This document shows, one piece after another, positions 11,828 through 64,000 of a DNA stretch of 64,000 bases. Under the pieces are notes generated by a model. It searched no databases. It worked only from the letters and a program-made list of their open reading frames with translations, and had not been told where the DNA came from. The DNA is from Tribonema minus. Lineage: Eukaryota; Sar; Xanthophyceae; Tribonematales; Tribonemataceae. The DNA is taken from assembly GCA_017506865.1 (NCBI GenBank), contig JAFCMP010000005.1:495004-559003 (forward strand), written 5' to 3'. Numbering within the stretch: the stretch's first letter is position 1; the number at the start of each line of letters is the position of its first letter. The translations under genes were made by a program, and so were the position numbers.

Positions 11828-14800
11828 CTAGTACCCAAAAACGCTAACGTTGAGTTTGCTACCGCCAGGCGCGGGCAATGCAAACGTGCCGCGAGCGCCG
11901 CGCACGCTGTCGTGTTCCCACACGCCGCTGTAGCTGCCGCCGCTTAGGTACGTGATCTGCACGCACATGCGGCCGAAGCAAGGAGGTCATGGGTCACAAC
12001 TTGAATGTCAGCGGCGTGGCGGCACACATGTGCTATGCATCAGGTGACTTCAGAACTGCTTTCACACGAGGTGAACTGCTCGAACAAATCATCCGCATTT
12101 GAGTGCATACTTCTGCCCGTCGCTCGCATGTGACCTGCGCATTGTTTGCCACAGCAGGCAGGAGCCGACCGCTCACAATGTCAATGGCGAGTGGTCTACG
12201 AGCATGTATACTTCGCACATGCCATGCCCAGTGTGCCACCATTTTCTAATCACAGCTGTGGTTGCTTACATTTGAGACAGTAGCGCTGGTCTGGCTGTGA
12301 GGGTGGGCGGGCAACACACCTGCCGGAGACCACCACACATGTAAAATTCAATTGCACCCTTAACACGGACTGGGGCGCCATTCATGATGCAGACTGCAGC
12401 AATTGCCAAATGTCATTTGATGCGATGCACGGGGGGCCAAAGCCGCCCCCTGATCCCAGCGCTGTGCTCCTGCGTGAACCCTTTTGCCGCCAATGCGCTA
12501 CAGGGAGCGCCAAAGCCGCCCCCTGCTCACAGCGCTGCACTCCTGCTTGAGGCCTTTTGCCACCAATGACACCCCATTTCAAGGCCTCGCAGAGCCCAAC
12601 ATTAAGGGTACCAGGTCATCGACCTCAACCAGTGCATACCATCGCCCCCCCCCCCCTAGCCCCCTCACTGAGCACTTTTCTTGCTCAAAGCACTTCAAGA
12701 CAATAAGAGCATACTCGAAGCAAGCAGGAGCGTCTCCGTCATGACAGTGCTCACCTGCCCTGCGCCATGCTTCTTGCCGTCCAGGAAGCCTCCGACAAAG
12801 ATGCTGCCGTCGCGCGTCAGCAGCGTGCCGCGCCCGGTGCGCTGCCCCCGGACAAAGTCGCCGTCGTACTGCGTGCCATCCGGCCACGCCATGACGCCGC
12901 GGCCGTGCATCTGCTCCCTGTCGAGTGCGCGTGGTTCGCGTGGAGGTGCATGCTGAGCTGCAGTCACCAATGGTGTTTTTTTCTTGCACAGCAGTTTCAG
13001 GAAAATGCTACCTCATGTTCTACTGTGGAGTAAGATATAAACCCCAGTGCAAAACAAAGTCGCTGTGCCGCCCGGTCACGCCATGACGCCGCGGCCGTGC
13101 ATCTGCTCCCTGTCAGGAGTATGGACACGGCAGCAGCCCGCGCTGAGCAGCAGTCACCAATCATTCTGGTGTTTATCTCTTGCAATGCAGTTTTTGGACA
13201 ATGCTACGAGTTCTACTTCAAATTTGTAAAATCTGAAACTTAATCGGAAAATGAAGTCGCTGTGCCGACGGGCCATGCCATGACGCCGCACCCGTGCATG
13301 CACATCTGCTCCCTGTTGCGTGCGCATGGCACGCATGGAGGTGGCAGCAGTGCATGCTGAGCAGCAGTACCTGTTGTGCCTCATTTGCAATTCAGTTCCT
13401 AGAAATACCACCAAGCTTAAAGGTCTATGAACCTAATGTGAAACGAAGTGCGACTGCGTGCCGTCTCACGCTGGCCATGTCATGATGCAACAGCCGTGCA
13501 TCTGCTACCTGTAGAATGCATGCTGAGCGGCAGTAGTTGATGGGTCGCCAACGATCATCTTCTGGAAGTGACATAGAACAATACTTCAAATGTTGCAATC
13601 ATGCAGTAGTATTTAAGACCTTGATGATGTGTGGACATTGTACTACAACTACAAAATGCAGGTTGCGTAAAACTGCGAGGCGTGCGCGCGGCGGCAGCAC
13701 CACAGTTGCTTCAGCAAGCCTACACAGGCACGGCGGCGCACTGCTCTGACCTTGCCATGTATCATGCCAGTGAATGGCCACAAGCAGGTGCTACTACAGC
13801 AAGTGCTAAATTATTCTCCAGGTATGCACTGCCTGTTTTAGTGTGTAGGCTATTCCAGTGTCAAGTGTGGTCACTATGCTCAAGCGCTGCCTCATATGAA
13901 AATGGCTCAAACATAAATGCTCCTCACTCTTTTTTTCTCCGTGTATTTTAATTTAAAATGGCGCTCCACCCCCTTTTTTTCGCTCTCATAAAAAAACTCG
14001 CCCCATGGGGCTTAATTATAGATAATACGGTAGCTTTTAATGATTCACACAAAGCGTGTTTTATCTCTAGAAAAGATGGAACAAGCTTTTCAATATTTCA
14101 AAAGTATTGTCTTTTGGCAGTCCCTGAAGGGAAAGCTTCAGGTAGTTGTTACAACACACCAGGCGACGGACGCACAGAAAAATGGTTGAACGCCCACATA
14201 TAAAGCCCCATCTTTTTTCTACACAAAAAAGGAAAGTATAATGCCAAAGTTCGTTGGTGCGCTTACATTACAACCCAGAAGTTGCTGACATAGCAGAAGT
14301 CATCACAACCATTATTGTCGGCCTTTCACCGCATGATCACATAATTTTTGTTCACCTCACAAAGTCGCCAACATAGCAGGATCCGTCACGGAATATGAGC
14401 TTTCCAGCGCCGTGCCTGATGCCGTGATCCCAGTCGCCGTTGTAAACTTCTCCTACCGATGCTCTGTAGACGTAGGTGCCCCTGCCATGCTTTTCTCCAG
14501 CTAACCACTGGCCGTCATACGACTGTCAGGGCATAGCGGGCACAATGCAGTCAGCTTGTCAGAGTTAGACTGGCCGTATCCTACGCTCCATCGCGTAATC
14601 ACAATGTGTCTGCGCCAGCAGGCGGAGCATGTTTGTGTGCTGTCACATTTTGGATGAATACCTGCATATTTGTTTGCATGCTATGATAACGTCAGAGCCT
14701 AGGGACACTGTGGCAGACAAATCTGTAGCGCCAATTAGACATCCAATTACACATCCTGCCTGCACCAGCCATAGTAGAAGCGAGGTCTGGCGCTGTGCCC

Positions 14801-20800: not shown

Positions 20801-23800
20801 TAGGGTGGAAATTATGCACTGGGGAGGCTCACCGACGTAATGCTCGCCGTGGCGTAGCGCATGGTGCCTGAGCCGTGTGGCAGGCCGTTGAGCCCCCGAG
20901 CAACATTTACTTCTGTGCAGTTTTCAATGTTTCTTGAAGTAGGAGTCATGCACAGGTGACAGGCTCACCGATGTGGTGCTCGCCGTTGGCGTAGTGCATG
21001 GTGCCTGACCCATTCTCTGCCAGCCTACCAGCTAGTACTCTGCTACAGCCGTGTGCCTAGCCTTGCTAATCGATGCCAAGCAAGGAGTGATGCACATGCT
21101 GCTGCCTATCCCAGACTCTTCGCTGAAACTTCACACTTCACACTCTTTAGGGCCTGTTCCCCTTGTGTACTGGTGAGGCTCACCAGCGCAGTGCTCGCCG
21201 TTGGCGTAACGCATGGTGCCTGAGCCGTGTGGCAGGCCGCTGAGCCATGCCCCCTCGTAGCGCACCCCCGAATACTTCTTGAGGTAGGAATTATGCACAG
21301 GTGACAGGCTCACCGGCGTAGTGCTCGCCGTTGGCGTAGCGCATGGTGCCTGAGCCGTGTGGCAGGCCGTTGAGCCATGCGCCCTCATAGCGTGCCCCCG
21401 AGGGCCAGGTGAGCTCGCCTTTGCCGCTGCGGCGGTTGTCACGCCAGCCCCCGCAGTAGATCTCCCCCGTCTCGGCGCTCCTGCGAGCGGAGTGGTTGAA
21501 CAAGTGGGGGTATAAAAAAATCGTTGAGGAAAAATGTGGGGGGCTTCTATTGGCATTTTTGTCAATCTAAACTGAGCTTTACACCACATCAAGATCTCTG
21601 CGCCTTGTTTCTGCTTGTCGTCACGACGGTGGTTGGGTGCGTGTATTGGTGGAATCTGTATAGGCAGGACTCGTGCGGGCAAGCATGCAACTTCGTGTGT
21701 CTCTCAGGAGCGTTCAACCTGCAACCTTGAAGAGGCTAATCTATCACGGTATCACCGTCATGCTGAGCACTGATGTGCCCGTCCAGATCTGCTCAGCGGG
21801 TGTTTTGTCTTTGGTTGTGCAAGCTCAGTCACAGTATTTGCTATGTATCATCATGTGATATTGCACTGACCAGCAGCCCTATGTGTGCCTTCGCCTCATG
21901 TAACATAGTGCCTCATTATTGACTGCATTCTGGAGAGGCTGATTAGACCAGCATCACCTGTACACACCTGTGCTGCGCGCCTTGTCGTCCTTAGGGCATT
22001 GTTTAGGCTGGGGTTAGGGATAGGGTCAGGGGTTCAGGGTCAGGGTTAGGATTACCTGTACACTCCTGTGCCGCGCGCCTTGTCGTCCGCAAAGTCGCCG
22101 TCGTAGACGTCGCCGCAGCGGAACACATAGCGCCCGTAGCCATGTTTGACGCCGCGGCGCCACTGGCCCACATACTTGTCCCCTGACGAGTGCGCGCAAA
22201 TAAGCAGTAAACCAAAATTTGATGCTTCCAGTTCAAGCCAGACTTGAATTGGCATGCAGATGCAAAGAATTTTGATAAATTTGTGTCTACGGGTGTCAAA
22301 ATGGAAGGCGCGGGGCATTCTTTCAAGATGTCATGTAAGCACGGGGGGGGGGGGGGGGCGTAGGGGGGGCAATACTACAGAATTTGTTGTCCGCAATTCT
22401 TTGAATCCCAATCTTGGGGTTGGTGGTACAAGGCAACCCCCCGTTTTGTACTTGCTTTTGAGGTTCTGACTAGTTGGGAGCTGCTGCTGCCTCTCAAGTG
22501 AGATACCTTTGATTGCAGGACACAGTCTACACTGTGGCACTTTTTGAGAACAGTATCATTTTGCAGTGCACTTGCTCCGTATGTGGTGTCACAACGGGAC
22601 AAAATGTTACACTTCAACTTTAAGTGACGTACCACCCGGACCACACGGCCCAGCACAAAAGGCAGGAAGATCAGCATGCCAATCAGCTTGAAGCTCACCA
22701 ATTTGAATCGATGATCGTCTATGTGTGGGAGACGTACAGGGGTAATGACGCCTTCTTTGAGTGCATTGAGGTGAGCGTGCAAGATGGTGATGTCAGACAC
22801 AGCGGCACTCTTGCACAAATAGCATGTAAGATACCCTTTTTTGATAACATGCCACGGGCGCAAGAAGTTGACGCAACACACAATTCACCTTCCGCCAGCC
22901 AAATCGGCAGCGCTGCTTGCGCAGCCAGCCGCTGCAGTAGCGTACGCCGCCAAAGTAGAGGCCAAGCAACTTGAAGCTTATACAACCATTCACAAACAAA
23001 CCACTCACCTGCTGCCAGCAGCAGCACGCCGACCCCGTGGGGTTGGTCACGCAATCCACCGCCGCGCAGTACCTTCGCCGTTGGGACAACGGCCTGCGCC
23101 GTTGGGACAGCGGCCAAGCAACTTGAAGTTCACAATGACCTCAACATACGACTCACCTCCTACCAGCAGCAGCACGCCGAAGCCATGCGGCTGGTGGCGC
23201 AGCGAGTCGCCGCAATACCGCGCGCCGTCGAATAGATGCCAAGTAACATGAAGATTACAGTAAGCTCAACTTAAAACTCACCTCCAGCCAGCAGCAGCAC
23301 GCCAAACCCGTGGGGCTGGTCGTGGGTGCCATCAATTAGAGGTCAAGCAACTTGAAGCTCACACCGACTTCAACGTGCGACTTGTCTCCTGCCAGCAGCA
23401 GTACGCGGAACCCGTGCGGCTGGTCGCGTAGCCAGCCATTGCAGTAGCGCGCGCCATCGGGGCAGACAAACACAACTTAAAGTTCACAATGACTTCAACC
23501 TGTGACTCACCTCCAGCCAGCAGCAGCACGCCGAAGCTGTGCGGCTGATCGCGCAGCCAGCCGCCGCATTAGCCGTCAGTGTAGAGGCCAAGCAAGTTAA
23601 AGTTTACACTACAGCGACTTCAACATGCGACGCACCTGCTGCCAGCAGCAGCACGCCGAAACCGTGCGGCTGATCGCGCAGCCAGCCGCCGCAGTAGCGC
23701 GCGCCGTCAGGGTAGATGCACGCGCCGCGGCCGCAGCGCCTGTCGCGCACGAACTCGCCGCGGTACGTCTCGCCACGCGCGAGGGCGAGGACGCCGATGC

Positions 23801-26800
23801 CGTGCGCGCGGCCCTCCTGCAGTGGTGAATCGACGGTGGCATGGTTTAGACAGAAGAAGAATCGTGCGTTTTGGGTGCACGACAGTGGCTACTATGCTAC
23901 AAGCACTGACGGCACTGGCGCGCAGAACAGGGATGGTGTGTGTGTGTCGATACTACACATAGTATGGCGCACTTCAGCGTATATACATTTACTTTTCCAG
24001 TGAGTGTACATCGTCACTGCCACTCGTGACTTGTAGATTGTAAAGGCAGTTTGCGATGAGTCGCTGCAGCGCCTTTGTGACCAAACTCGCCGTGGTGAGT
24101 CTCGCCGCGCACCAGGCAAGGACGCCGACGCCGTGCGTGCGCCCTTCCTGCGAGGGTGCATCAGGAATGGCGATGCTCGCATAGGCGCCAAAGAGGAAAT
24201 GTATGTTCTTGACAAGTGCAAATATACAGCATGTTGGTACATGATATTCTGAACACTGCTAGAATTGGTACCCCCAATGGGTACACCGAGGTACTTCAAA
24301 GTACAGTATATGCACCGCCTGCTGCCGCCAGCCTCGGTGGCTCGTGATATGCGTATCGATGATGACGTGAGTAGGGAAGTGAGCCAGTGGTATTATATGC
24401 GGCTTTTTAGAGATCAGGAACAGAATCTCGCTTCTCATTGTAATGCGGCCGATCGCAACGTGACCAATCATACATGGGGAAGGTGGACAGCCCACTTCAA
24501 CTGCATTGAGATCCATTGTCACAGGAGAAAAAGCACAGCTACTGCAGCGCCGCCTCAGCGCAGCAGCGCTCACCTGCACGTGCCCGAAGTACTCGTCGCC
24601 GTTCTTGCGCGCGAAGAACACGAGCCCCCGCGGCGCCCCCCTCTCGAACGCCCCCTCCCAGACGTCCCCGTTGGCGCACGTCAGCCGCCCCACGCCTGTG
24701 ACTCTCCCCTCCCTGAACTCCCCCTCGTACGACTCCCCCTTGACGCCGTCAACCATCACGCCCGCCCCGTCGCGCGCGCCGTAGGCAAAACCCCCGACAT
24801 ATGCATACAGCGCGCCGTCAGAACCAGGGGCGCCATCGGCAGTGGCATCTGCAGCAGCGCTCGCCCCGGTGCCAACGCCCGAGTCCCTCCGAACCCCCGA
24901 AAGCGGCTGCTTCTTTGATGTGTAGACAGCTGAAGCGTGCTGCTCGATAGGGGCGCGCGACCGGCGCAGAACAGCGCCGACTCCTGAGCGATGCCCTGCG
25001 TGCCACATCCCCGCGTAGCGCGCGCGCCCGCCGGCTACGCCAGGGTCTGCGTTCGGCCAGTCGCACGTGCCGAAACCGCTGAGCGCTGAGCCGTCGGCGG
25101 TTTCGCCGCGCTGCACGGCACCGCCGCGGAGCGTGCGCTGCAGCAGACTGCTGCTGAGGGCAGCGCTTGATGTGGGGGTTGAAGTTGGCTGTGGAGCGTC
25201 ATCGGATTGGTGTTTGTCATGCTTGCTGGTCGGGCCGCTCCGATGCGATGCGCGCACGCCGCTGCTGCTGGCTGTCATTTTGCGAACGCCGCTGCCGCCA
25301 CCGCCGCCGCCGCTGTTGCTGCTGCTGCTCGCTGACGCGTGGCCGTCAGCAACGCGAGCTGGCACTGAAACAGATTGCGAGTAATCGGTTGCTGAGCATG
25401 CCATGCTGCCGCACGGCTCAAACTCCGCCGCTGCGCTGCTGAGCCCGCCCAGAGCGCCTCCCGCGCGCTCGATGCTGACGCACCCCCCGAACTCTTCCAT
25501 CGTAACCGCCAGGTGGTCACACACGGGTGACAGCGCTCCCATGGACGGCATGCCGCCAGGCGTTGCTGATTTCCACGACGGATCAGCGGAGCGCGGGGGT
25601 GCTGCGGCTGTCGCCGCCGCCGCTGCTGCTGCTGCCGCTGCAGCAGTGCCTGGCGGCTCCGTCACCTGCTGCTGCCATGTGGGGCGTTTGCCGCTAGCGG
25701 ACACTGTGGCTGTATGCTGAGACAGCGCATTGCTGTTGGTGCTGCTGCCGGCGCCGCGGCAGCCGCTGATGCTGTCATATGGCGGCCCCGCAGCGCCGCT
25801 GCTGCGCTGCCGGTGCTGCTGCTGAGCACTGCTATTGTGTGAGTGCTGCGGAGCGCTGCTGTGATGGTGAGCGCTGCCACCACGTGATGCGTGCTGAGCA
25901 GCGCTGCAGCTGCCGCGTGTGCCCGTGCGCGATCTCCTCGCATTGCGGAATCCGTGTGCATCTGCTGCCGTGATGTTGTCGCGGGCGTTCATGGCGCTGC
26001 CGCTGCCGCACAGCGCGCAGCGCGGGAAGCTCAGCGCCGCGTTGATCGCCTCGCACGCCAGGCACTGCCAGCGGTGGGCCGTCGCGCGGTGGGTCTGCGA
26101 GTGCAATCAAGATCAACGGCGACGATAGTGGGGGCTACGGTTGCGTGACGTCAAATTCACCTTCAAGTACACCTTCCTCAACTCATCTTCTTGGTGAGAT
26201 ACGTCAAGTTCACCTTCAAGTTCACGTTCAAGTTCATCTTCAAGTTTTTTTTCCTCAAGTCATCTTCTTGGTGAGACATAGTAGACATCGTCTGGTTGGC
26301 CGCTGCATGGCTTGCTCCCGCTAATCAGCGCGCTGCATGCGGGCTCAAGTTTGCACGCAGCAGGCGCAGGCTGGCTGCACACTAATCAGGCAAGACATCA
26401 CAACCGTGAGTTGGCACAGGCACGTGAGCGTAACTTTAATTGCGCAACTTCAGGGGTCAAAACCGTGCAAGGCAGCTGTGCATGCCAGCTGGCGTTCAAA
26501 TGCGACCGCACCAAAGAGTATGCAGTACAATGGAGAGCATGAGACTGCATGCACGCACCTGAAATTCCTCGTGCGTCTTGAAGGCCTGCCGACATGGCTC
26601 CTCTCCAGCTCCCCTATAAGGGTGCGGCCAGGGGTCCCAATTGCATGTGAGCGCCTCCCTGAAGGCCTCCGGGGCATCCCACGTGCTGCGACGTGTGGCA
26701 TTGTCCATGTACCAGAAGCAGTTGACGTCGGTGTCAAAGTATTCTGTCCAGCCGCTGATCGTCTGCACCCTTCGAGACCGCTGCATCATCAGCGCCAAGG

Positions 26801-31810: not shown

Positions 31811-31947
31811 ACTCTGCCTTGCCGGCTCGCTGCCTTTTGGGTCCCGTGTCGACACTTCAACACACTAACAAGGTGCTTTTGTGAACAACACACTTCTTTG
31901 AAGTTCAAGTCCCGACCGCACCACCGCACGTTGGCCTGCTAAGCAAA
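31811..31947. promoter_or_regulatory. Shared divergent promoter of RRP46 and the ankyrin gene
   Basis: Only 137 bp separate the two start codons, so both promoters must lie here or overlap the 5' coding ends. It contains one ACTTCAA and one TTGAAGT (about 31853 and 31898), the motif that recurs in introns. Confidence 0.55.
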
Positions 31948-34900
31948 ATGATCGGTACAGCGGCGGCTCCGCTCGGCTTGCTGCTGCTGTCGTTCATGGA
32001 CGTCGGCAGGGCCTTCCTGACGGCCCCTGGCGCACATAATTTGCCGACTTCAACTTTCGCGTGCTGCAGCAGAGGCCTCCGAAGGTATGCAGTGATGCTA
32101 TGCTATGCAATCTTGTTTGAGTTCTTGACTCGTTACTGCTCATGCTCATGCAACGAAAGCCGACAACCGTGTACATATCAGTATGTCAAGGTTTGCTTAG
32201 TTGCATGTGTCGCAGACGTAACATCGCCCGAACGCCGCAACGCACACGCGTGGTGGGCCGTTGTTCCATCATCCTTGCGAGTCACTCACTTCTTACTGCT
32301 GATGGTACAGCAACGTCACGTGGCGTGGTCTTTGATACTTCAACAATTGACTCTGGGGAGTACTTGAACAGTGACCATCGTGCTGGACACTGATTTCCCA
32401 CGTCCCGGCCTATGGTCAATTATTTATGTGGCATCCACTGGGCTGATTAAACATGCTGACTACTACTCCTGATGCTGCCGATGCAACACCTAAATGTCGC
32501 ACCACTTGTCCTCTGCGGGTTGATGACAAGGCAAGCATCCCTGCAACATACACATTCACCAAGTACACAGTGAAGTATTGGCTATGCCCACCACATGTAA
32601 GCATCAGCCCGTGCTATCCTGGCCGCGACAACGCAGGTCCCCCTTCACCCGCTTCGTGACCGTCGAGGGCAACGTGGATGGGCCGTCAATACCTGCCCCG
32701 GATGCAAATACCAACCCCGTTGACATCTTCGACGCAATACTCGAGGGCGACGCCGAGTCCGTCGCCAGGTACTCACAAGCTCAAGTTTGAAGTTGCATTC
32801 ATGAAGGCCCCTCGGGAGGCAGGATGTGTGGTGCGTTCCTATCAATTGCTCCTCCAGGTACTCACAAACTTGCATTTTCACGGGCCCAAGGAGCTCAAGT
32901 GTATGGTGTGTTCCTATGACTTGCAGCTTATGCAGCAACGTGATCTGCACTGCACACAGATAGCCGTGTATGTATGCATGTTGGTCTCCGCCTGTTGCTC
33001 CGCATCGTCAGAGGTAGGCATCAAGGTGACTGAAGCCTCAGGGAACCGACGCCAGTCGTGCTGCTAGTGGTGAGTGTGGTCATGCGTCCACCAGCAACTG
33101 TAACTGTCAGTGTGTGCAACACGATGAGTATGACGCCGTCATGTGTAGGAGCAGTGAGCGTGTAACCGCCACATGCTCCTACAGCGGGTACATTGCACAC
33201 GGCGGCGACGTCAACATCCGCGACTCCATCGTATGGCATTGCCAGTGCAACTGCCTTAACCGCCAGCGTGTAACCGCCAACGCCAACAGCGCTCCCACAA
33301 CAGGCACATTGACAACAGGTACATTGCGCACGGCGGCGACGTCAACATCCGCGACTCAATCGGCAACTCCCCGCTGGTGCTCCCCGCGGAGAACGGCTTC
33401 ACGGACATCATCAAGCAAGTGTAACTGCCGTAACCGCCAGCGCGTAACAGAAATGATCGCTTGCTCCCACAACAGGTACATTGCGCACGGCGGCGACGTC
33501 AACATCCGCGACTCGATCGGCGACTCCCCGCTCATGCTCGCCGCGGAGAACGACTAGTACTGCATTGCCGGGGTAACTGCTGAACTGCCAGCGGTCAACG
33601 ACAACGCCCATGCAACGCTGCGCCGCAGGTACATTGCGCACGGCGGCGACGTCAACATCCGCGACTCGATCGGCGACTCCCCGCTCATGCTCGCCGCGGA
33701 GAACGACTAGTACTGCATTGCCGGTGTAACTGCTGAACTGCCAGCGGTCAACGACAACGCCCATGCAACGCTGCGCCGCAGGTACATTGCGCACGGCGGC
33801 GACGTCAACATCCGCGACTCGATCGGCGACTCCCCGCTCATGCTCGCCGCGGAGAACGACTAGTACTGCATTGCCGGTGTAACTGCTGAACTGCCAGCGG
33901 TCAACGACAACGCCCATGCAACGCTGCGCCGCGGGTACATTGCGCACGGCGGCGACGTCAACACCCGCGACTCGATCGGCAACTCCCCGCTCATGCTCGC
34001 CGCGGAGAACGACTTCACGGACATCATTAAGCCAGTGTAACTGCCGTAACCGCTCAGTTCAACCGCCACACTGCTCGCCTTGCACGACAGGTACATTGCG
34101 CACGGCGGCGACGTCAACATCCGCGACTCGATCGGCGACTCCCCGCTCATGCTCGCCGCAGAGAACCGACTTCACGGACATCATTAAGCCAGTGTAACTG
34201 CCGTAACCGCTAAGTTCAACCGCCACACTGCTCGCCTTGCACGACAGGTACATTGCGCACGGCGGCGACGTCAACATCCGCGACTCGATCGGCGACTCCC
34301 CGCTCATGCTCGCCGCGGAGAACGACTTCACGGACATCATCAAGCTCCTGGTGCACGAGGGCGGCGCGGACATCAACGGCAAGGCGGGCGCGGGGATGGA
34401 GACGCCGCTGATCCTGGCGGCGTACTACGGGTACACGGGGCTGTGCGTGTTCCTGGTGGAGATGTGCGGCGCGGACATGGAGGTCCGCAGCGGCCGGGGG
34501 GACACGGGTGCGTTACAATCGTAAATGTGACTCTGGCCAAGCTGGTGGCGTTTAAAGACAGGGCTTAGATGGGCTGATGGGCTGTTTGTCTTACATGTAT
34601 GGAGGTGTGCGGCGCGGACATGGAGGTCCGCAGCGGCCGGGGGGACACCGTTGGGTGAACAACGTAACTGACAGTGTAACGGTTGCTTTAGTGAGCGGTT
34701 CAGGTTCAGGGGCAGGGTTCAGACAGCAACAGGGGCTGTTTGTCTTCAAACAAGAGGTGTGGGTGGCGGACATAGCGGCCGGGGGGGCACCGGTGAGCAC
34801 TGCTGCCCCTCGCGTGGCAGCACACGTGCTGCGCTGCCGGTGGAGTGGGGCATAAGGGTCAGGGCTAGGGTTAGGCGTACTACGGGTACACGGGGCTGTG

Positions 34901-38638: not shown

Positions 38639-38641
<3 letters not shown>

Positions 38642-38674: not shown

Positions 38675-38676
<2 letters not shown>

Positions 38677-40174: not shown

Positions 40175-40219
<45 letters not shown>

Positions 40220-43200: not shown

Positions 43201-46200
43201 GCAACAGTGCTCAAAGCACGATGCTCAGGGCATAACACAGAGTGGCCATGTGCAGGGCGTGGCATAGAGCGGCTACACTGTTTTCAAAAAGTAGTCAAAC
43301 CAGCGCCCGTACCTGCATGTGGCGACGGCGACCCTGAAGTCGCGCGCAAAGCGGTTGGTGCCTAGCGCGGGCTCGCAGCCAACGGTGTAGACGGCAATGC
43401 CCGCCTCGAGCATCGCGCGCAATGCTCAGGGCAAGATATGTAACTTCAAATTGTAGTTGAAGTATGTCAATTGGCAGCAACAGCGCTCTCCTCACCTGCG
43501 TGATGTCCGCGACGGCGACCATGAAGTCGCGCGCAAAGCGGTAGCTGCCGAGCGCGGGCTCGCAGCCGACGGTGTACAATTGCTCAGGGCAAGGTATGAA
43601 ACTTCACATTATAGCTGAAGTATGTCAACTGAAAGCGGCAGAAACAGCGCTCTCCACACCTGCGTAGTGTCGGCGACACGACCATGAAGTCACGCGCAAA
43701 GCGGTAGCTGCCGAGCGCTGGCTCGCAGCCGACGGTGTAGACGGGCTCAGTGCGCAATGCTCAGGTCAAGATAATAAACTTCAAGTAAATATTGAAGTTG
43801 ACACAGCGCCCTCACCTGCGTGATGTCCGCAACGGCGACCATGAAGTCGCGCGCAAAGCGGTAGCTGCCGAGCGCCGGCTCGCAGCCGACGGTGTACACC
43901 GTGATGCCCGCCTCGAGCATCGCGCGCGCGATGGCGAGCGGGTCGCGCCCCTCCGGGCAGCCGTTGGGGAAGCCGTCGCCGTGCTCGCCGAGGCCGTGCG
44001 GCGGCGCGTCAGCGATCAGCACGACGATCTTGACGGCGTCCGGGCGCCACGCCATGTGGAGCGCTTTTTTTTTTGGGAGGGTTGGCAGGGGATGCGCCGT
44101 GTCTGTTAGTGTTATGAGTGGCGATGTGTCGTCCACACGATGTGTGTTGCGGCGATGTGTGTTGCGGCGGCGCGTCAGCGATCGGCACGACGATCTTGCC
44201 GGCGTTGGGGCGCTACGCGACGTGGAGCGCTGTGTGGTGTGTGTGTGTGTGTGACAGCACTCCTACGTTGACATTGGCATCAGCATTTGTGAAGTAGTCA
44301 TGAACTTCAAATCAGACCCATTCCTTCAAGTACCTGCGTGCAGCCCACAGCACACTGCCTTGGGGCCGTCGCCGCCGCCCGCGGCGCTCATCGCGTTGCG
44401 CATTGGCACCGCACACGTCAGAAGCAGAAGCGGTCCTACTGAACTCCATCATGAATATTAACCACCTCACCTGCGTGCAGCCCGCAGCGCACGGCCTCGG
44501 GGCCGTCGCCGCCGCACGCGACGCTCATGGTGTTGGCATCTGGTTGTCGTCAACTGCAACATTAAACACAGCACTTCAAGCACCTGCGTGCAGCCCGCAG
44601 CACACGGCCTCGGGGCTGCCGCCGCCGCCCTCAGCACTTGTAGTGTTGACGTTGGCATTGGCCTTTCTCAACGTAGCCATATAATTTAACATCACACACA
44701 GTACTTCAAGTACCTGCGTGCAGCCCGCAGGACACGGCCTCTGAGCCGTCGCCACCGCCCGCGGCGCTCATGGCGTCGACGTTGGTACCGCATACTTCAG
44801 AGCAGTAGTCCTACTAAACTTTAACATCAATATTAATCGCCTGCATGCAGCCCGCAGCACACGGCCTCGGGGCCGTCGCCGCCGCCCCCGGCGCTCATGG
44901 TGTTGGACAATTCTTACATCAGACACAAGTATGAACTTCAACATCAGACATACTACTTCAAGCACCTGCGTGCAGCCCGCAGCACACGGCCTCCGGGCCG
45001 TCGCCGCCGCCCGCGGCACTCATGGTGTCGACGTTGGCGCGCATGGCGCCCACGGCGCTGGTGAAGTCGCACTGCTCCGACACAAACGTGGACTCCTGCG
45101 GCGGGTGGTCGCGGTACTTGACGAGGCCGAAGCGCACGTCGCACTTCTCCGCAGCGACGAGCGACTCCACGATGCTCTGCACGTTGCGCTGCGCCTCTGC
45201 TCGCGTTTGTAGCGCGGGGGGGAAGCAGTTGAAGTTGAAGGGGGGGGTCAGGAGGGGGTGGAAGGGTGAAAGGAAGTTCTTGAGGAACATGAGGCGCGTT
45301 GTAGCGGGGCAAGGAGACAGTTGAAGTATGAGGGGGGGGGGGTCAAGAGGGGGTGGAGGGGTGGACGGGGGGCAAGGCGTCGGTCTGTGTGAGGAAGACG
45401 TGCGACGTGGCTGAGCAAGGCGTGCAGCGTCAGTTCATGACGACACAACGACCGACTTCTTCAGTGTGGTATGGACGACAAGCACGTCGCACTTCTCCGA
45501 GGCGACGAGCGACTCCATGATGCTCTGCACGTTGTGCTGCGCCTCTGCTCGCGTTATCGCGCGGGGGGGAAGTAGTTGCGGTATGAGGGGGGGGGGGGGT
45601 CAGGAGGGGGTGGAGGGGTGAACGGGGGGTGGGGGCGCCGGTGGGTGTCAGGAGGACGTGCGATGTGGTTGAGCTAAGTGCACACTGCCAGTGCACAATT
45701 GTCAATAAATCACCACTTCGCTTGCACGTTGCGCTGCGCCTCTGCTCGCATTGCCGCGGCAAAGAAGAAGAAGGAGGTTCAAACGTGGGTTCAGAAGAAG
45801 GGGGTGGGGGTGTGGGTGAGGCCGGTGGCGTGCGACGTGGCTGAGCACTTGGTATTGCGTCGATTCAAAATGAGATGACACTGGGCTTGCGGGCGCCCTG
45901 GCAAGATACAACATAGTCTAAAGTGAGGGTACTTTATTGACTTCCGCTTGAGGGGCGGGAGCCCTATGAGAAATACATAATACATATTTGAAGTATGCAG
46001 CTTTAGTGCTCATCTCAAGCGTGTGCTCACACACATGTGTGAACGCAGCTGAACGCATGTGCTACCATTAAGTATCAATACAGTCAAGGAGTACTCGTGG
46101 AAAACCGAGGAGTACACGCATTGCACCACGAACCCCCGCTGCCTGGCCGCTTGAAGTGCTGCAGAGGTAGTGGCCGAGCGCCAACAGTGCAAGTGCCCAA

Positions 46201-51100: not shown

Positions 51101-53359
51101 CAGTGTCAAAGTTGAACGCAGCGAACTGTGAGATGCCAGACGATGCGGGCACCTGACTCCGACAGGCGTGTGCTGCTGCGCGCGAACGGTGGCTGAACCA
51201 CGGGACACGCGTGCAGCAGCATGACCACAAGCCCTCACCCTGACTCGCACCCGAACCCCCAGTGTGTGGGCTGACAAACACGCCCTGACACTCAGAACCT
51301 AACTGCACTTCGCAGGTACGTGCGGTTAAAACACAGGCTGCGCGTGCGGCGGCGGCTGCAGCAGGTGGGGGAGGCGGCGCGCGCGCGCGGGGACCACTGG
51401 GAGAACACTATTGCCAGGGCGGCGATGAAGGGGGACTACGCACGCGTTGTGGTGAGTGCATACGCGTAACTTAGCCTACGTGTGTGTGCACATGTACACA
51501 TGTACTTCAAGACAACACTATTGCCAGGGCGGCGATGATGGAGGACTGTGTGCGCGTTGTGGTGAGTGCATACGCGGCGCGTAGCAGTGTAGTACGTGTG
51601 TTCACATGTATGCGTATGTGTACGTAAGTGTAACTGCTGTATACGTCAAGCGCGCCAACGCCAATGGACCACTGGGAGAGCACTATTGCCAGAGCGGCGA
51701 CGAAGGGGGACTATGCGCGCGTTGTGGTGAGTGCATACGCATTGCGTAGCCTCTACAATGTAGTCTAAATGGTGTAGGCATGTGTATACATGTGTACTTT
51801 AAGAGAACGCCATTGCCAGGGGCAGCGATGAAGGGGGACTACAAGCGGGTCTTGGTGGGTGCATACACCTAACGTGGCCTGCAAGTGTATACGTATGTAT
51901 ACATATGAACGCGAAGAAAACACCCTTGCCAGGGCGGCGACGAAGGGGGGCTATGCGCGCGTCGTGGTGAGTGCATACGCGTCACATAGCCTCTGCGTTT
52001 GAATATGTATGCGTATGTGTGCGCAAGTTTATACTTCAAAGGAAGACCATTGCCATGTCGGCAGTGAAGGGGGACTATGCGCGCGTCGTGGCGAGTGCAT
52101 ACGCATCACGTAGCCTGCAAGTGTATACTGCACGTATATGTATATGCATGTTGAAGCGGGGACAGCTGCTGCTCACTAGCTCGTTGCTCCACAGAGGTAG
52201 ACATCAATGTGACCTATGCAACAGAAGGCTGAAGCCCAGGTCTGCATGCATATATGCACTGTGATCACATTCCACTTGGTTGGGGTTGTAGAAATGCCTG
52301 CATGCACTGAAGGGTTGTTCTGTAAGCCGCTCTTTGCGTGAATATGGATGAAAAACACGTGAATGCTGTGGCATATTGCAGATGGATTCACAGCGCCCTT
52401 TGGAGGGCCGTGAAGAACAATTAAGTGAATGAATCGGAAACCAGCCAATCAGATCGCGCGCAGCTTGTGATGAGGGTCGCTGGCCATGCGTCACTCAGCA
52501 CTGGAGACATGGCTGTGCAGCGCCATGACTACTAGCCTTTGAGATGCCGCTGCCTGCGCCACGAGCGGTGCGCTGAAGGGATATACCTGCGCTGGTTGCT
52601 AGCGCTGCGACCGACGTTGCGTTGGCCACGTATGTGAAATCTAGGCGCTGTACAGAACGGGTCTAAAAGTGTATGAGTTGCATACTTGAGGCCGGCAGGG
52701 ACAGTCAAGCCTACTACTTCAACCGTTCATGAACATGATTTCTTGTCCGCATGTCCCTTCCAACGCAAGTGCTGGACAGTTTTTGTCAGCCGGTGCAGCG
52801 ACATGCTCAACGTCCCTTTCTTGCAGCTGAACACTTCGGCAGCGGCTGGGGCTGTGAATGCCAGACAGAGTTTCGATCGCACGATGCGCACTATGCTGGT
52901 GCATGCTACAAACGGCAGATTTGAGGCAAGGGGGTCTAGAAAATGCTGTTGTCGTAGTTGAAGTTGCACACAGGCGTCTGTTCTGCAGCATGCTGGCCCG
53001 TTTCCCCCATCATAACATTGGAAGCAGCTGATGAATTTCCTGGCGCAGCTGTTTAAGTCTGTTGTCACGTTTATCTGACACCTCCCATATGCATGTCAAT
53101 GCAAACTTCAACACCTCAGGACCACGCGCTCTCCACCATCTTCAACCGGCCGCACCCGATCTCGTGCGTGTTTGTGTACAACCCGAACGACAAGTACATA
53201 GATCAGGCGGACATAGGCACGGCGGTGGCGCGCGCGGCGGCGGCGGGCAACGCCGTTGTTCAAGTTGAAGTTGACACACCCCACATCCAGACCATCTTCC
53301 GCAAGCCCGCCGCGCTGTTCGACGCGTTAAACGATGCCGAGGGTGGCGACGGCGCATGA
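48169..53359 (+). CDS. DUF829/TMEM53-like alpha/beta hydrolase with signal peptide, 4 exons
   Basis: Exons 48169-48507, 50024-50454, 51316-51451 and 53120-53359 (TGA) splice in phase to 1146 nt, 381 aa. Exon 1 ends in a GC donor (AAG/GCAAGT). Residues 1-20 form a signal peptide ending AYS, followed by Trp and a basic, Ser-containing stretch, so export or plastid routing is possible. The family core follows: SVLVLSWFFANPREL, then FGYADVLIYES, a Ser in LVHCMSGG (about Ser184), VFDSTPIMP, VFVYNPNDKYI (Asp about 326) and VDTPHI (His about 357). These fit a Ser-Asp-His triad as in TMEM53-type proteins. A Gly/Ser insert of about 20 residues precedes the nucleophile. The substrate is unknown. Confidence 0.87.
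48508..50023 (+). other. Intron 1 of the DUF829 gene
   Basis: 1516-bp GC-AG intron with a MITE-like element (49086-49627). The ORF reading through the donor to 48594 lacks family features. Confidence 0.7.
49086..49627. mobile_element. MITE-like element with roughly 30-bp inverted ends and TA flanks
   Basis: The left end AGTACCGTATATGCCCCAGT, continuing AAACGCCCCCCC, is the exact reverse complement of the right end (GGGGGGGCGTTTACTGGGG...CGGTACT). TA at both borders fits a mariner-like TA target duplication. The inside has several more GGGCGTTTAC...GGGG segments. A related single end lies at about 58153-58171. No transposase is present. Confidence 0.75.
50525..51050 (+). repeat. Donor-edge copies of DUF829 exon 2
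   Basis: The exon end GCAATCCGCGCCAAGTGGAGCG..GGCTGCATGTGAG recurs near 50535-50578, 50690-50730, 50868-50905 and, more decayed, 51005-51045. TTGAAGTT follows most of them. Confidence 0.85.
51500..52115 (+). repeat. Five-copy array of the donor edge of DUF829 exon 3
   Basis: CATTGCCAGGGCGGCGA.GAAGGGGGACTA...GTGGTGAGTGCATACGC is repeated near 51513, 51670, 51812, 51925 and 52045 after the intact exon (51316-51451), with spacing about 110-155 bp. Confidence 0.88.
52116..53119 (+). other. Remaining part of intron 3 of the DUF829 gene
   Basis: No exon or repeat recognised in about 1 kb. The acceptor is ACCTCAG at 53113-53119. Confidence 0.5.
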
Positions 53360-57700: not shown

Positions 57701-60145
57701 ACTGTAATGTACTATTTCCAATGTACTTTCATGCCGTGAAGACAATGCAGCCATACATTGTGAACATACACTCACCCAGTTGCATGCGCGCGCTGCAGCT
57801 GCGCCGGCGCCACCGGCGCCGTAAGAGCTCGCAGCAGCGGCGGCGGCGGCCGCAGCGGCGGCGGCGCCGGCAGCGGAAGCGGCGCTGCTGCTAGACCCTG
57901 ACACTAGGGTGGTGAAGAATGGAACTTCATTCATCTTGATGTTCGGCCGGCGGAGCAGAAACCTGAAAAATGGGGGGGGGGGGGGGGATGGCAATGGCGT
58001 ATGAGCATTGCAGCAGCTTCCGTTGATGACGTGCTGGTACAGATGTAGCAGCATGAAGCAGGTGCTTGATGATAGGCTCCTGGCAAGGGCTCTCTGTTGG
58101 GCCCTGACCCAGAGCCTGATTTTTGTTTTTACCTTTATTTTGCAATGCTTATACCGTAAATGCCCCAGGGACAGGTCCTGTATGTCTCTAGTGCGTTGAC
58201 TGCCATAATGTGCCATTGCCCGATTCACATGATAAGCCACTACTGCAACTGCTTTGAAGTTGACGTTGAAGCGTACCACCAAACACTGCAGTCCACGCAT
58301 GCCTCTTGATGGTACACACGCGTCGTGCGCGGGCGCGGACGCCAGTGTCGTCGGCACGGCCTCATATACTTCAACTTGCAGTGAAATCAGACGATACACA
58401 GCAGCACTCAGCTCACCTGTCAATTATCACGCACGCGGCCGCCAGCACCGCAGATACTTCAAGCTGGTGTTGAAGTACACCTCACGACCAGACACTTCAA
58501 CTTGATGTGAAGCCAGACCACACAGCGCTCAGCTCACCTGTTGATGGCTACGTATGCGTCGTGCGCGGGCGTGGACGCCAGAACATCGGCGGCGTGCGCC
58601 AACGACACGGCGACGAGCGTCGGAACGCGCGCGGAAGGGTCCGTGACGCCGTCGCGCAGGCTGCGCAGCAGCAGCAGCAGCTGCGCGCAGGGGACACGGC
58701 GCGGGCAGACGGTGGCAGTGAGCAGCAGCAGCAGCGGCGGCCGCGGCAGCAGCAGCGGCAGCAGCGGCGGCAGCGGTGGCAGCAGCGGTGGCAGCAGCAG
58801 CAGCGGCGGCGGCAGCAGCAGGGTTGGCGGAGGGCGACAGGGAGCAGGTGGTGCTGCAGCAGCGCAGCTAGGGCCGCAGTAGCAGCAGCAGCAGCGGCGG
58901 CACCAAGCCACTTCAATGTTGTGGTCCAGTGCAAGACAAAGAACTCTCCCGAGGGGGGAGTTCGGCGGGACAACATGTAGTACGGCCGCGAGTCAGATAT
59001 CGGCACACTGTCAACTTCAGCTGACACCATGGGTCCCTGACGACACAACGGCCTTTCGCCGCAGTGCTGTAGCATAGATGCCCCTGTGCTGACTGTCGAA
59101 CGCGCCGAACGCACGCGCAGCACAGCGCAGACGTGTGCGCCCCAAACTTGCCTGCGGTCGCTGCTTGAAGGCCGTGTCCGCGGCGCACGCGTCGCCCTCC
59201 ACAACGCTCAGCAGCCGCTGCAGGCACGCGAGCGCGGCGGCGCGCGTGCAGGCGCGCAGGCTCGCCGTCGCCGCAAGGCAGTACGCAAGCGCCCCCGACT
59301 CGCACACCTGGGGGAGGGGGGGGGGGGCAAGGTATGCATATAAGTATGGGTCAGAGAGCATCAGCCGGTGCGTACTGCGGCATAATGAAACAGCAGTACG
59401 CGAGCGCCCCCGACTCGCACACCTGGGGGGCAGGTATGTTAGTATGGGTGGCCGTGAGCATCAGCTTCAGGTACAGTGTGACATCAAAAAGTAGAGTATG
59501 TTGCGCTGTCAAGCTCATGATGATAGATTGGATGTTCGTGTGGAGCGGTGCAGGCTCGCCGTCGCCGCGAGGCAGTACGCTAGCGCCCCCGACTCGCCCA
59601 CCTGGGGGGGGGTTGGGGGGGGGGGCAGGTATCTTTTCAAAGTGGTTGGCAGCGAGCATCAGCCGGTGCGTAATGCGGCACATCATTTATCGATAATACA
59701 GCCGTACGCTAGCGCCCCCGACTCGCACACCATGGGGGGGGGGGTTGTAAGTATGGATGGCACTGGTACTTATCCTCGCAACGGTATACTTCCAAGTAGT
59801 TTAATGCGCTGGCATGCTCATGACGCTTGATGCGAAGGTCCGCGTGCAGCGGTGTAGGCTCGCAGGCAGTACGCGAGCGCCCCCGGCTCGCACACCTGGG
59901 GGACAGGTATGTATGTAAGTGATGGGTGGCAGTGAGCATCAGCGGTAGTAGGTACTGCACAGAACGAGAAGTAGTAGGCGAGTACCCCTGACTCAAAATG
60001 GGGGGCAGGTATGTAATAGATTCCAGTGGCAGCGAGCACCAGCCGGTCGGCAACTGCACTGTCTGGCCGTGCTCGTGATGACGAGGTATCTGCGTGTCTT
60101 TGATGGAGGGCAGTGTGCGAGCACGCTGCCAGCAAATGAGTGTTG

Positions 60146-60225
<80 letters not shown>

Positions 60226-62393
60226 ACACACAAACATGCACACATCACACACACCACACCGCACAACGCGCTGACACACGCTACACACCTCACATAGCAA
60301 CAACACGCACACCTCATGAGTGCAAGCGCTTTGTGAGGTATACCACCCCCAGGTACATGTACTTTGAGCACTGTCTGTTAAGTGTTCGCAGGACACATGT
60401 GTGGGTGCTGGTAGCCAGGTGGATATACTTGGGAGCCTATGTACCAGGGTTAGGGTTAAGGTCAGGGTTACCTAACCCTAACCCTAAGCTGTTTCACGCC
60501 CTGAAGTGAGACTCAATTAAGCAGTACATGAGCACAGCTGACCTGTCTCGCGTCGGCGCACCCTGCAGTCGACAGCGCATCGTCCAGCAACGGCAGCACA
60601 CGCACAACACACGCCTCACATAGCCTTCACAACACAACTGACGAGTGTAGGCACGTTGTGAGGTATACCTGCAAGCACACATACTTCGATCGAAGCACCT
60701 CAAAAGCCAATTTTCGCGCCCTTCGCGAGAATTTTCATGGAAAAGTACAGTAATTGAGCTCACCTGTCTCGCGACGGCGCACCCCGCAGTTGACAGCGCA
60801 TCATCCAGCAGCGGCAGCACAAACGCGGGGTCCAGCACCTCGTGCGCCGCCGCGGCGTCCGCAGCTGCCGAGCACTGCTGCATTTCCATCTCGCTGCGCG
60901 GTGACTCTGACTCTGACTCAGACTGGCCGCCCTCCGCGTCGGTCCCGTCGCTGGCCGCATCCGCTGCGTCGTCGCCTGCGAGTGATGGCACGGGAAAGGA
61001 ATGCAGTTGTGCGTCAGTTTGAGGAAGCACAGCTGCGCTCGAGGGTGGTGCAGTGCTTACATCGAGTTAAGCGGTGACTCTGAGTCTGACTCAGACTGGC
61101 CGCCCTCTGCGTCGGTGCCCTCGCTGGCGGCGTCAGCCGCGTCGTCGCCTGCGAGTGATGGCACGAGAAAGGAATGCAGTTGTGCGTCTGATTCAGGAGG
61201 AAGCGCTGCAGCGCTTGAGAGCAGTGCAGTATTTACGTCGAGTCGAGCGTAGCCTCTGAGTCTGATTCAGACTCGTTGATCGCGTCAGCCTCGCCGTCTG
61301 CTGCGAGCAACACAATTTCCGGATGGCTAGCACCCACTCTACCCACTGCTGGATGTAATGACTGCAACGAAGGCTGTCATGTGGAGTGTGGAGGTGACTG
61401 AGTGTGAGCTTGAGCTGGGTGCTGCACTTCCGAGCACTGAGGCACATTCAGCAAGTTGCACAGCGATGCTGACTCAGATTCAGACTCACTCCTGCTAATC
61501 TGCGTCGGTGCCCTTGCTGCCTGCATCAGCCCCAGTCACGCCTGCCAGTAACAGCAACAGAGATGACCGCAGAGTGACGCAAATGTGTGCGCGTCACGCA
61601 TGAAAGAAACGGTTTGGAGTGCCAAGTCCTAAGTATAGGCAAAGGATGACGGTGGGCACGATTAAGCTAACCTTATCCCTAAGTCGCCATTAGATCACAG
61701 CATCCCAAAGTGGTTCAGGCTTTGACAGCCGCGTGCTACGACTCGACTCAATCCCTGACTCACTCGACTCCGCCGTGGCCACTCCAGCTCACCGTCAACG
61801 CTCATCGCATCCCCATCATCTTCAAGTTGAACATCACCATTGCCGCTCCCCGGCGCTCCTTCGCGCCCGCCCTCGCCCCCCATTTGCTCGAACGCAGGCT
61901 CAAACGGCAGCGGCGGCGGCTCCAGTGGCCGCCGCAGCGGAAATGCGCCTATGCTGGCGCGGAACCGCCGCGCGATGGACGGTTCCGACAGCCAGGGGGG
62001 CGGCGGAGGGCCGCGCGCGTAGGCGCTGCCGTGCCGCCTGCCGTGGTGCCATGGCACCTGCAGGAGGGGGGGGGGTTGGAAGGGGGGGGGGGCGTGTGTG
62101 TGTTTAGTGGAGCACTCTGCATGCAGTGGCAGCACCGCAATCTCACTGCGGCATTGGGATCAACACGGTGCGTAGGCGCTGCCGTGCCGTCTGCCGTGGT
62201 GCTGCGGCGCCTGCGAGGATTTGGAGGAGAGGGAAGGGGGTGGGGGGGGGGGCGTTCAGTGGAGCACTGCTGCCTGCGGCGGCGGCGCTGCATACAGCGC
62301 TGCAATACTGGTGTGAGGGTGGGACGAGTAGCCTCAGTCAGGGTGGCGGTGCTGCCGTGCCGTGGTGCCACGGCGCCTGGGAGGGTGGGGGTC

Positions 62394-62434
<41 letters not shown>

Positions 62435-63450
62435 CGTGGGCTTGTAGCTGGATGGCGAACACCCGAAAAATGGGATCTTGAACCCATAAGGTTAATGGCG
62501 TACGTGCTGCCGCACCCCGTCTGCCGTGGTGCAACGGCGCCGGCGAAGATTGGGGGGGAAAGGGCGAGCGATGCGATGTGCACACTAAGTTGAGCGCTGC
62601 TGCATGCAGCGCCAGCGCCGCCATCTCACTGCAGCGTTGTGATCAACACGCTCAGATTTAGGTTCAGCCAGGGGTGGCGGCAGGGAGTGCATGTGCAGGT
62701 GCTGCCCCCCCCCCCCCCCCCCCCCCCCTGCCGTGGCGCCACGGCGCCTGTGCGAGGCCCGGGGCGATTGGGCCGGGATCAGGGCCACCGTTGGGGTCAG
62801 GTCGCAGTGAGGTTAGATCTAGGGTTAGGTCTACGCTTGTGAGCGCTGCTGGGTGTTGCGGCAGTGCTCCGGCGTCGCCGCCACGGCCAATCACTCCGCA
62901 ATGATCCTCGCTGGGGAGGCCAAGTGGAGCCTTGTTGCTCCCCGCGCGCGTCAGCGCTGGCCGCTGCCGCCTTCTCCGTGCCTGTCATTCTCATTACCCG
63001 CTGTGTTCCACAGTTTAGGACTGTCACCGAGCTCATGTATGCGCACACTTTACATCAATGGGGTAGGTACGGAGCCACCAACAACACTGATACCAACAAA
63101 CCTTGGGTTGCAGCGGCGCCTGAGCGTCAGCGACCGCGTCCTCGTCCTCCGCCCACGCCCAGCACAGCGCCACACTGTTCAGGACTATCACAGAGGTCAT
63201 GTATGCGCACATACACACAGGGTAGGTATGAAGCCATTGTCAATCCTGATACCAACATACCTTAGGTTGCTGCTGCGGCGGCTGAGCGTCATCGACCGCG
63301 TCCTCGTCCTCCGCGCACGCCCAGCGCAGCGCCGCGGCGCGCGGCGGCAGCGCGCCGGCGTCCTGGTACAGGCGCAGCAGCCGCGCCGTTAACACGTCGC
63401 GGCTTGAGAGCGAGCCCGTGTAGTGCGCCAGCAGCGGCGCCATGACGCCC
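54768..63450 (-). CDS. URB1: URB1-like nucleolar pre-ribosome protein, eight 3' exons (5' end outside the window)
   Basis: Exons 63450-63261, 62057-61793, 60975-60764, 59307-59152, 58680-58538, 57962-57776, 56952-56696 and 56208-54768 (stop) are in phase throughout, 2851 nt. The order of blocks follows the C-terminal NopRA1 region of URB1/Npa1: LLAHYTGSLSSRDVLTARLL; RASIGAFPLRRPL; DPAFVLPLLDDAL; ESGALAYCLAATAS; VPTLVAVSLAHAADVLASTP; FLLRRPNIKMNEVPFF; LRLLRDGVRTGQDL; a long Ala/Leu helical repeat; and a Lys/Arg-rich nuclear-localisation tail (KRKKRH, KRKRRK). URB1 is a HEAT/ARM-type scaffold of early 60S pre-ribosomes in the nucleolus. An acidic Ser/Glu/Asp linker splits exons 2 and 3. The intron after 59152 has a GC donor (CAG/GCAAGT). 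The gene is incomplete at the right edge. Confidence 0.85.
58300..58537 (-). repeat. Donor-edge copies of URB1-like exon 58680-58538
   Basis: GATGGTACACACGCGTCGTGCGCGGGCGCGGACGCCAG near 58306 and a decayed copy near 58418-58450 match the exon end 58538-58590. A TACTTCAA-N7-TTGAAGTA hairpin lies at 58455-58477. Confidence 0.8.
59308..60020 (-). repeat. Array of acceptor-edge copies of URB1-like exon 59307-59152
   Basis: The block GCAGTACGC.AGCGCCCCCGACTCGCACACCTGGGGG (minus strand: C tract, CAG, exon start) recurs near 59393, 59570, 59703, 59868 and, more decayed, 59970, with spacing about 130-180 bp. Each copy keeps its poly-C tract. Confidence 0.9.
60149..60236. repeat. (CA)n microsatellite
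   Basis: About 40 CA units with a few TA/AA interruptions at the 3' end, in a URB1 intron. Confidence 0.95.
60535..60610 (-). repeat. Donor-edge copy of URB1-like exon 60975-60764
   Basis: CTGACCTGTCTCGCGTCGGCGCACCCTGCAGTCGACAGCGCATCGTCCAGCA matches 60759-60812, about 220 bp downstream of the true exon end. Confidence 0.85.
61070..61550 (-). repeat. Acceptor-edge copies of URB1-like exon 60975-60764
   Basis: GACTCTGA.TCTGACTCAGACTGGCCGCC...GCGTCGTCGCCTGCGAGTGATGG is repeated nearly exactly at 61074-61172. Decayed copies lie near 61252-61310 and 61468-61550. They include GATTCAGAC-rich acidic-linker sequence. Confidence 0.88.
62100..62760 (-). repeat. Acceptor-edge copies of URB1-like exon 62057-61793
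   Basis: Copies of GCTGCCGTGCCG.CTGCCGTGGTGCCA.GGC.CCTG followed by G-rich tracts lie near 62175, 62350, 62505 and 62728. The G runs (C on the coding strand) reach 36 bp at 62396-62431 in front of one copy. Confidence 0.88.
62850..63170 (-). repeat. Donor-edge copies of URB1-like exon 63450-63261
   Basis: CCTTGGGTTGCAGCGGCGCCTGAGCGTCAGCGACCGCGTCCTCGTCCTCCGC near 63100-63150 repeats 63261-63315. A weaker copy lies near 62930. GTATGTTGG-like donors and GTAGGTA..GGAGCCA flanks are shared. Confidence 0.8.
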
Positions 63451-64000
63451 CTGCAAGCGCAGCGAAACAGCAGCGCAACAATCGTCAAATGCTTCGCGGC
63501 AGGGACGCGCATGCGGAGTACGCTGCGATGTTGGAAACGGCGAGCGAGTGCGTCATGCACACGCGCGTGGCACGGCTCAGGAGACGGTGTAGCACGCCAG
63601 TAGCGGCGCCGTGGCGCATCTGCGAGCGCAGCGAAGCAGCAGCAGACGGCGCAGCGGCGCTCCGACTGTCAGACCTTTGCGGCATGCGCACACGCTCAAG
63701 GAGACTTTGCGATCTGGAGCGGCCTGCGCCTGCGACGTGGGGGCGGTGCAGGGTGTATAGGCGCGGCACCGCTCAACAGCGAGCCGGCTAGCAGCGGCGC
63801 TGTGAATGCTGGGGGCAAATGGCAGCAGCGCTCCAATCTTCCAATGCTCGCGCAGCGAGGACGCGCATGCATGCTGCGGTGGGGACGGCGGGAGAGTGCG
63901 TCGTGCACACGCGCGGCGCTGCTGTACGGAGAGCTGGAGTCGTACGCCGGCAGCGGCGCCGCGGCGCATTGGCGCGCGCAGCAGAACAGCAGCGACGCTC
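63451..64000 (-). repeat. Acceptor-edge copies of URB1-like exon 63450-63261
   Basis: Blocks like CCAG.AGCGGCGCC.TGGCGCATCTGCGAGCGCAGCGAAGCAGCAGC recur near 63596, 63790 and 63950 with spacing about 160-190 bp. No further exon was recognised before the window edge. Confidence 0.75.

Follow-up and report, generated by a model that had tools for sequence, protein, structure and literature searches.

Tandem exon duplications and mutually exclusive exons are tandem exon copies inside a gene. In plants, tandem duplications of up to a few hundred base pairs arise from the repair of adjacent nicks, with fill-in at the nicks as their source; we know of no link between these duplications and exon–intron junctions. 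Other described systems concern the gain and spread of introns. Tandem duplication is a recognized route of intron gain in the portions available to us of a review (PMC3443670), and in the potato RdRp gene, according to the available parts of that report (PMC4974935), one boundary-crossing tandem duplication made a new intron by way of a cryptic donor. Introners, as characterized in the accessible text of PMC9860276, are mobile and alike between genes; the word “Tribonema” is absent from the main text of that paper. Among the papers listed in a literature search, no title or beginning of an abstract describes serial exon-boundary arrays.

Here we describe such arrays in Tribonema minus, a yellow-green alga of the PX clade, to which the brown algae also belong. 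The window, the whole 64,000-nucleotide stretch that was analysed, spans C5:495004–559003 in a genome of 158 Mb on 554 contigs. Like tandem exon duplications, the arrays contain tandem copies of exon sequence within a gene, set head to tail as direct repeats in one place; unlike them, they consist of one-sided exon pieces, each with a single splice site and free of reading-frame constraint. No whole exon with both splice sites was found among the first copies at 31 edges, which hold 21–112 nt of exon beside one junction plus the adjoining intron. Relative to the potato event as given in the available parts of PMC4974935, the events here are many and serial, affect donors and acceptors, and lengthen existing introns, and no intron was added in the genes compared. 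As in the route to intron gain outlined in the available portions of PMC3443670, local tandem duplication interacts with splice sites, but that model duplicates exonic sequence into a new intron, whereas the unit described here reaches across a junction that already exists, and no intron gain was seen. A new intron between duplicated exonic sites, as in the AGGT model, was not found in CCT-gamma, where the four of eight introns that bear copies splice at the exon-adjacent sites; the published gene models compared were those of CCT-gamma and CCT eta only. The arrays resemble introners, as these appear in the accessible text of PMC9860276, in changing intron content on a genome scale; unlike introners, every array is its own gene’s sequence, and similar sequence in the introns of different genes was virtually absent (one match in 1496 cross-gene tests, and a whole-genome search with one unit). 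With the plant nick-repair duplications they share a size of up to a few hundred base pairs, and nick repair is a candidate mechanism here. Judged from sequence, the kind of duplication is a known one and its frequency here appears unusually high.

Anatomy of the arrays in the window

The original prediction placed arrays in eight intervals of the window, and self-BLAST and Tandem Repeats Finder reveal local direct repeats in all of them. Searches with 60-nt exon-edge queries (cut-off at least 28 bits) find copies at both donor and acceptor edges, both kinds having been named. Eight edges carry six, four, five, five, and three donor copies and seven, four, and four acceptor copies; in addition, there are one and two acceptor copies at the two internal VWA exons and one at the exon beginning at 60975. 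In window coordinates, the features are:

22879–23635, minus strand: donor-edge array of exon 23636–23816, six copies of the exon end, most with GT
33187–34247, plus strand: acceptor-edge array of ankyrin-like exon 34248–34507, seven copies of the exon start, period about 155
34248–34507, plus strand: intact ankyrin-like exon, with arrays on either side
34508–35283, plus strand: donor-edge array of ankyrin-like exon 34248–34507, three copies; junction 34507 from the gene finder
43116–43815, minus strand: donor-edge array of VWA exon 43816–44055, four copies
43816–44055, minus strand: intact VWA exon ALHMAWRPD...ADITQ, 5′ end uncertain by a few bases
44065–44230, minus strand: acceptor-edge copy of VWA exon 43816–44055, 166 bp upstream
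44334–44965, minus strand: donor-edge array of VWA exon 44966–45199, five copies, spacing about 125
44966–45199, minus strand: intact VWA exon AEAQRNVQ...CCGLHA, 5′ end tentative
45200–45744, minus strand: acceptor-edge copies of VWA exon 44966–45199, 348 and 545 bp upstream
51452–52138, plus strand: donor-edge array of predicted exon 51337–51451, five copies
59308–59896, minus strand: acceptor-edge array of predicted exon 59152–59307, four copies
60976–61273, minus strand: acceptor-edge duplication of predicted exon 60764–60975, one copy, 173 bp upstream
62058–62650, minus strand (strand unsure): acceptor-edge array of the exon starting at 62057, four weak matches

The donor array of the ankyrin-like exon (junction 34507, plus strand) and the VWA acceptor copies are absent from the original list. 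The VWA gene, on the minus strand, displays the full arrangement: the intact exon is central, with copies of its first part upstream and of its last part downstream. The interval 61070–61550 contains one acceptor copy over the cut-off, and self-BLAST adds a repeat of 61106–61179 against 61499–61572. The array near 62 kb was read as a minus-strand acceptor, and the gene finder put a plus-strand exon there. Copy spacing has a median of 143 bp and a 10–90% range of 99–204 bp, in agreement with the proposed period of about 100–210 bp. Internal expansion of arrays is visible in the ankyrin array, which has near-identical units in a row, and in the CCT-gamma donor array, in which short and long units alternate. 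A 166-base unit of the ankyrin array has nine matches in the whole genome (very common words skipped), all at C5:528190–529348, which is its own array.

The window also holds repeats of other kinds. Two 258-bp direct repeats (3829–4086 and 9195–9452) that start with TG are 99.2% identical and lie 5.4 kb apart; CTTG precedes the left repeat and ends the right one, and the pair resembles the LTRs of a young retrotransposon. The three open reading frames in or near this putative element (4178–7333, 7334–8614) match no Pfam family at E 0.01. A pair of 608-bp direct repeats (1–608 and 2914–3521), the left of which runs into the window edge, is 99.7% identical, and the open reading frame between them (934–2583) likewise matches no Pfam family at E 0.01. 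Interstitial telomere-like repeats of the CCTAAC type are present at 39350–39414 and 22010–22050.

Frequency and position of edge copies across the genome

Exons of conserved families (Cpn60/TCP-1, HSP70, kinesin, and actin) were located by profile, and some of the loci were used; four profile hits were not counted as exons, being edge copies themselves. Intron calls combined frame and splice signals with profile hits, except at L001, where the published CCT-eta protein P0121 was used. The first set comprises 30 introns (27 called; four of L001 replaced by eight from P0121; one of L003 omitted for its low score), the second 29 (30 called; one of L026 with two possible acceptors dropped; five exon pairs gave no call), and the third the seven of 14 calls with a score of at least 5, for 66 introns in all. 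The automatic calls agree with the published CCT-eta and CCT-gamma proteins in all eight introns compared.

Edge copies are present in 22 of these 66 introns outside the window (10/30 in the first set and 8/29 in the second) and affect 26 of 132 edges, 14 of them donors and 12 acceptors, with four introns having both. In predicted introns, copies occur in 13 of 44 in nine 10-kb regions, chosen by round coordinates on five contigs carrying Cpn60/TCP-1 genes, and in 17 of 30 in the window, where some predicted exons are themselves copies. These counts lie far above the cross-gene null, in which exon edges were matched against other genes’ introns (one match in 1496 tests for the first 30 introns; two in 1420 for the predicted introns of the window and the nine regions). 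The exons of the predicted set come from a simple gene finder that, of the 66 donors and 66 acceptors in its training genes, placed 59 and 58 exactly; it called 11 exons inside the 66 introns, seven of them at edge copies. The arrays occur on many contigs rather than being confined to the window, as the original prediction had asked to be checked. Its claim that most exon–intron boundaries are affected holds only as far as arrays being common: roughly a third of introns bear copies, unevenly, and 26 of 132 edges is well short of most.

The unevenness is marked. Copies occur in all introns kept of L006 (5/5) and L026 (3/3) and in none at L002 (0/2), L003 (0/6), L023 (0/4), L025 (0/5), L007 (0/1), and L009 (0/1); CCT gamma (L005, contig C5) has copies in four of eight introns, and CCT eta (L001, contig C235) in one of eight, with one weak copy. 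Genes of the same family differ sharply in array content, L001–L003, L023, and L025 on the one hand and L005, L006, L024, and L026 on the other, and L003 and L004 differ despite sharing one contig. Of the 30 introns called at L021–L026 (HSP70 and one kinesin gene), 29 are in phase 0, many after CAG.

The position of the repeats was assessed with self-repeat clusters found from intron letters only. In the 66 introns, a splice site is no more than 15 nt away for 13 of 26 such clusters, compared with 1.55 (sd 1.19) under random placement; 23 of the 26 are near a splice site or contain an exon-edge copy, and three are neither. Predicted introns behave similarly, with 6 of 20 clusters near a splice site in the nine regions (expected 1.96, sd 0.95) and 5 of 17 in the window (expected 1.49, sd 0.68). 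Across the window and the nine regions, 49 of 80 repeat clusters fall at a predicted junction (shifted mean 27.8, sd 3.6), a count not fully independent of the prediction, since the gene finder may take copies for exons; the junction excess is judged from the intron-letter counts instead. The other 31 of 80 have no predicted junction, so duplication happens elsewhere too; the cluster at 43997–44230, scored without a junction owing to a gene-finder mislabel, is actually an acceptor copy. For the junction excess, a genuine bias in the duplication process is the preferred reading. G+C content is 63% at exon edges and 53% in introns, which may or may not be relevant.

Fate of the copies and length of the introns

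Copies aligned to the junction are on average 88–95% identical to the exon, an average difference of about 10%. At the 20 edges with at least two copies (12 outside and 8 inside the window), the nearest copy resembles the exon more closely than the farthest in 17 cases, less closely in two, and equally in one, and the fall in similarity with distance reported in the original prediction is thus borne out. GT or AG is kept in 63 of 79 junction-aligned copies (48 outside and 31 inside the window), where identity squared predicts 65.4. Frameshifts are present in 18 of 91 copies, copy spacing is without three-base phase (33/24/34), and an in-frame stop occurs within the aligned exon part of 2 of 72 copies. 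Mismatch by codon position is 0.073/0.046/0.125 between exon and copy and 0.121/0.085/0.141, nearly flat, between copies; the third-position excess relative to the exon, slight between copies, fits constraint on the exon but not on the copies. By these measures, the splice dinucleotides, reading frame, and codon pattern of the copies decay at about the level expected of unconstrained DNA.

Homology points to use of the exon-adjacent site, and so do the two published gene models compared (CCT-gamma and CCT eta). The published CCT-gamma protein implies eight introns, four of which contain 18 copies, and none of the copies is included in the protein. The suggestion that the arrays supply alternative exon ends is not supported: splice dinucleotides are at expectation, some copies are frameshifted, codon positions are nearly flat, CCT-gamma uses none of its 18 copies, and the coding or splice-site constraint of an alternative exon end was not found on the copies. 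Low-level use of copies in splicing may occur.

Exon parts of copies are more alike than intron parts when copies found by exon similarity are compared with each other (identity 0.88 and 0.61, respectively), and the identity profile falls within about 15 nt of the junction. This contrast is largely due to the copies having been found by exon similarity. The reverse search, by intron flank, yields 37 copies at 20 edges with an average identity of 0.81 in the exon part and 0.80 in the intron part, where chance identity for anchored pieces is 0.58. In eight of the 37, the exon part does no better than chance; among the remaining 29, similarity is somewhat higher in exon parts (about 0.87) than in intron parts (about 0.79). 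The contrast in the exon-based search exceeds simple decay, and the reverse search removes most of it, perhaps not all, leaving some exon-limited homogenization possible. Strong constraint on the exon parts of copies was considered and set aside as mostly a detection effect.

The eight copies mentioned above represent the splice-site side without a recognizable exon part, that is, duplications stopping at or near the junction; loci of such copies are L003:5056, L009:2865, L005:7089, L001:1773, and L028:6240, with one at L005:5212. At L003 and L021, duplications were suspected of stopping precisely at the 3′ splice site, but this was rejected, the sequence running a few nucleotides into the exon.

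The arrays account for extra intron length. In the 66 introns, median length is 927.5 bp with copies and 492 bp without (p 2e-5); after subtraction of the array extent, the median of copy-bearing introns is 536.5 bp, comparable to that of copy-free introns (p 0.71). Two HSP70 paralogues, L023 and L024, share intron positions, two of which were compared. The intron before VVLVGGSTRI is 450 bp long with no copies in L023 and 793 bp long with two donor copies in L024, and the intron before VYEGERAMTR is 278 bp with no copies in L023 and 971 bp with three acceptor copies in L024. Because the surplus length equals the array extent, the arrays constitute a mode of intron growth, as the original prediction had proposed, and they do so on many contigs.

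Origin of the arrays

Serial local direct duplications across junctions, the decay of their copies, and the growth of introns are all visible in the data, and we consider it on balance probable that recurrent tandem duplication across exon–intron junctions, silent to splicing, is a mode of intron growth in this genome. The arrays would then be stacks of tandem duplications, mostly of 100–200 bp, with a unit that straddles the junction. Such a duplication would be silent because splicing keeps to the exon-adjacent site, and it could drift to fixation. Selection would keep the exon intact, so that it remains the template; younger copies would tend to adjoin the exon, older ones would sit deeper in the intron, and existing arrays would also expand internally. 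We infer that the duplications are silent to splicing, that new copies come from the intact exon, and that mutation itself favours junctions. At 5 of 31 edges, the first copy lies within 10 nt of its source, adjoining or overlapping it; at the other 26, more than 10 nt between the units fail to align, through decay or because they were never copied. Microhomology at the breakpoints is not readable because the breakpoints are too decayed. A plausible candidate route starts from staggered nicks close to the junction, perhaps where transcription and splicing pause, that are filled in and end-joined during repair; the unit size fits duplications of the plant type. We raise tentatively, as a possibility, that junctions are duplication hot spots caused by transcription or splicing, through pausing, nicks made at splice sites, or RNA–DNA hybrids, possibly combined with RNA-guided repair, such that the splicing map directs where introns grow.

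The junction bias would be only apparent if duplication of about 140 bp occurred evenly throughout the genome and exon edges stood out through longer recognizability and purging inside exons. The 31 of 80 clusters off predicted junctions, with none wholly inside a predicted exon, agree with this account, and finding copies by exon similarity does exaggerate how conserved their exon parts are. However, intron letters alone place 13 of 26 clusters near a splice site where 1.55 are expected, and the predicted introns give 6 of 20 (expected 1.96) in the nine regions and 5 of 17 (expected 1.49) in the window. Were units of the observed lengths placed uniformly, 38% would be expected at a junction, a figure from single units that is somewhat generous to the junction-bias reading for long arrays, compared with 23 of 26 clusters touching a junction or holding an edge copy. 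We regard even duplication as rather unlikely. If instead the arrays were maintained, their exon parts being homogenized through gene conversion involving the intact exon or through repair templated on spliced RNA, one would understand the identity of 0.88 in exon and 0.61 in intron parts, the drop within about 15 nt, and the near-flat codon positions between copies; but copies found by their flank (0.81 and 0.80) trace that contrast largely to the search method, and exons closer to identity are also expected if only the exon is constrained, which leaves homogenization improbable as the general explanation.

The remaining accounts are less probable still. That the copies function as alternative exon ends or splicing decoys is consistent with GT or AG in 63 of 79 and an in-frame stop in only 2 of 72, but retention matches the neutral 65.4, 18 of 91 are frameshifted, three-base phase is lacking, codon positions are nearly flat, and none of the 18 copies enters the CCT-gamma protein; function is very improbable, and alternative exons were rejected as the main explanation. 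The location of arrays at exon–intron borders would suit mobile or introner-like elements inserted at splice sites, an account hardly credible when the 166-base ankyrin unit matches its own array only and edges match foreign introns once in 1496 tests; an introner or transposon was rejected on these grounds. Tandem repeats are hard to assemble, yet the copies are 88–95% identical to the exon with individual differences and lie in unrelated genes on many contigs. An assembly artefact was rejected because copies differ and many loci are affected, and is very unlikely.

Under recurrent duplication across junctions, much of the variation in intron length traces to duplications of the exon’s own edge that can be seen and dated, and intron growth becomes measurable event by event. 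Brown algae also have long introns; for Ectocarpus, the available parts of PMC12477816 give a median of 524 bp on autosomes. The arrays also provide a natural set of good-looking decoy splice sites beside real ones for the study of splice-site choice. If the junction bias is true genome-wide, it would mean a mutation process guided by gene architecture.
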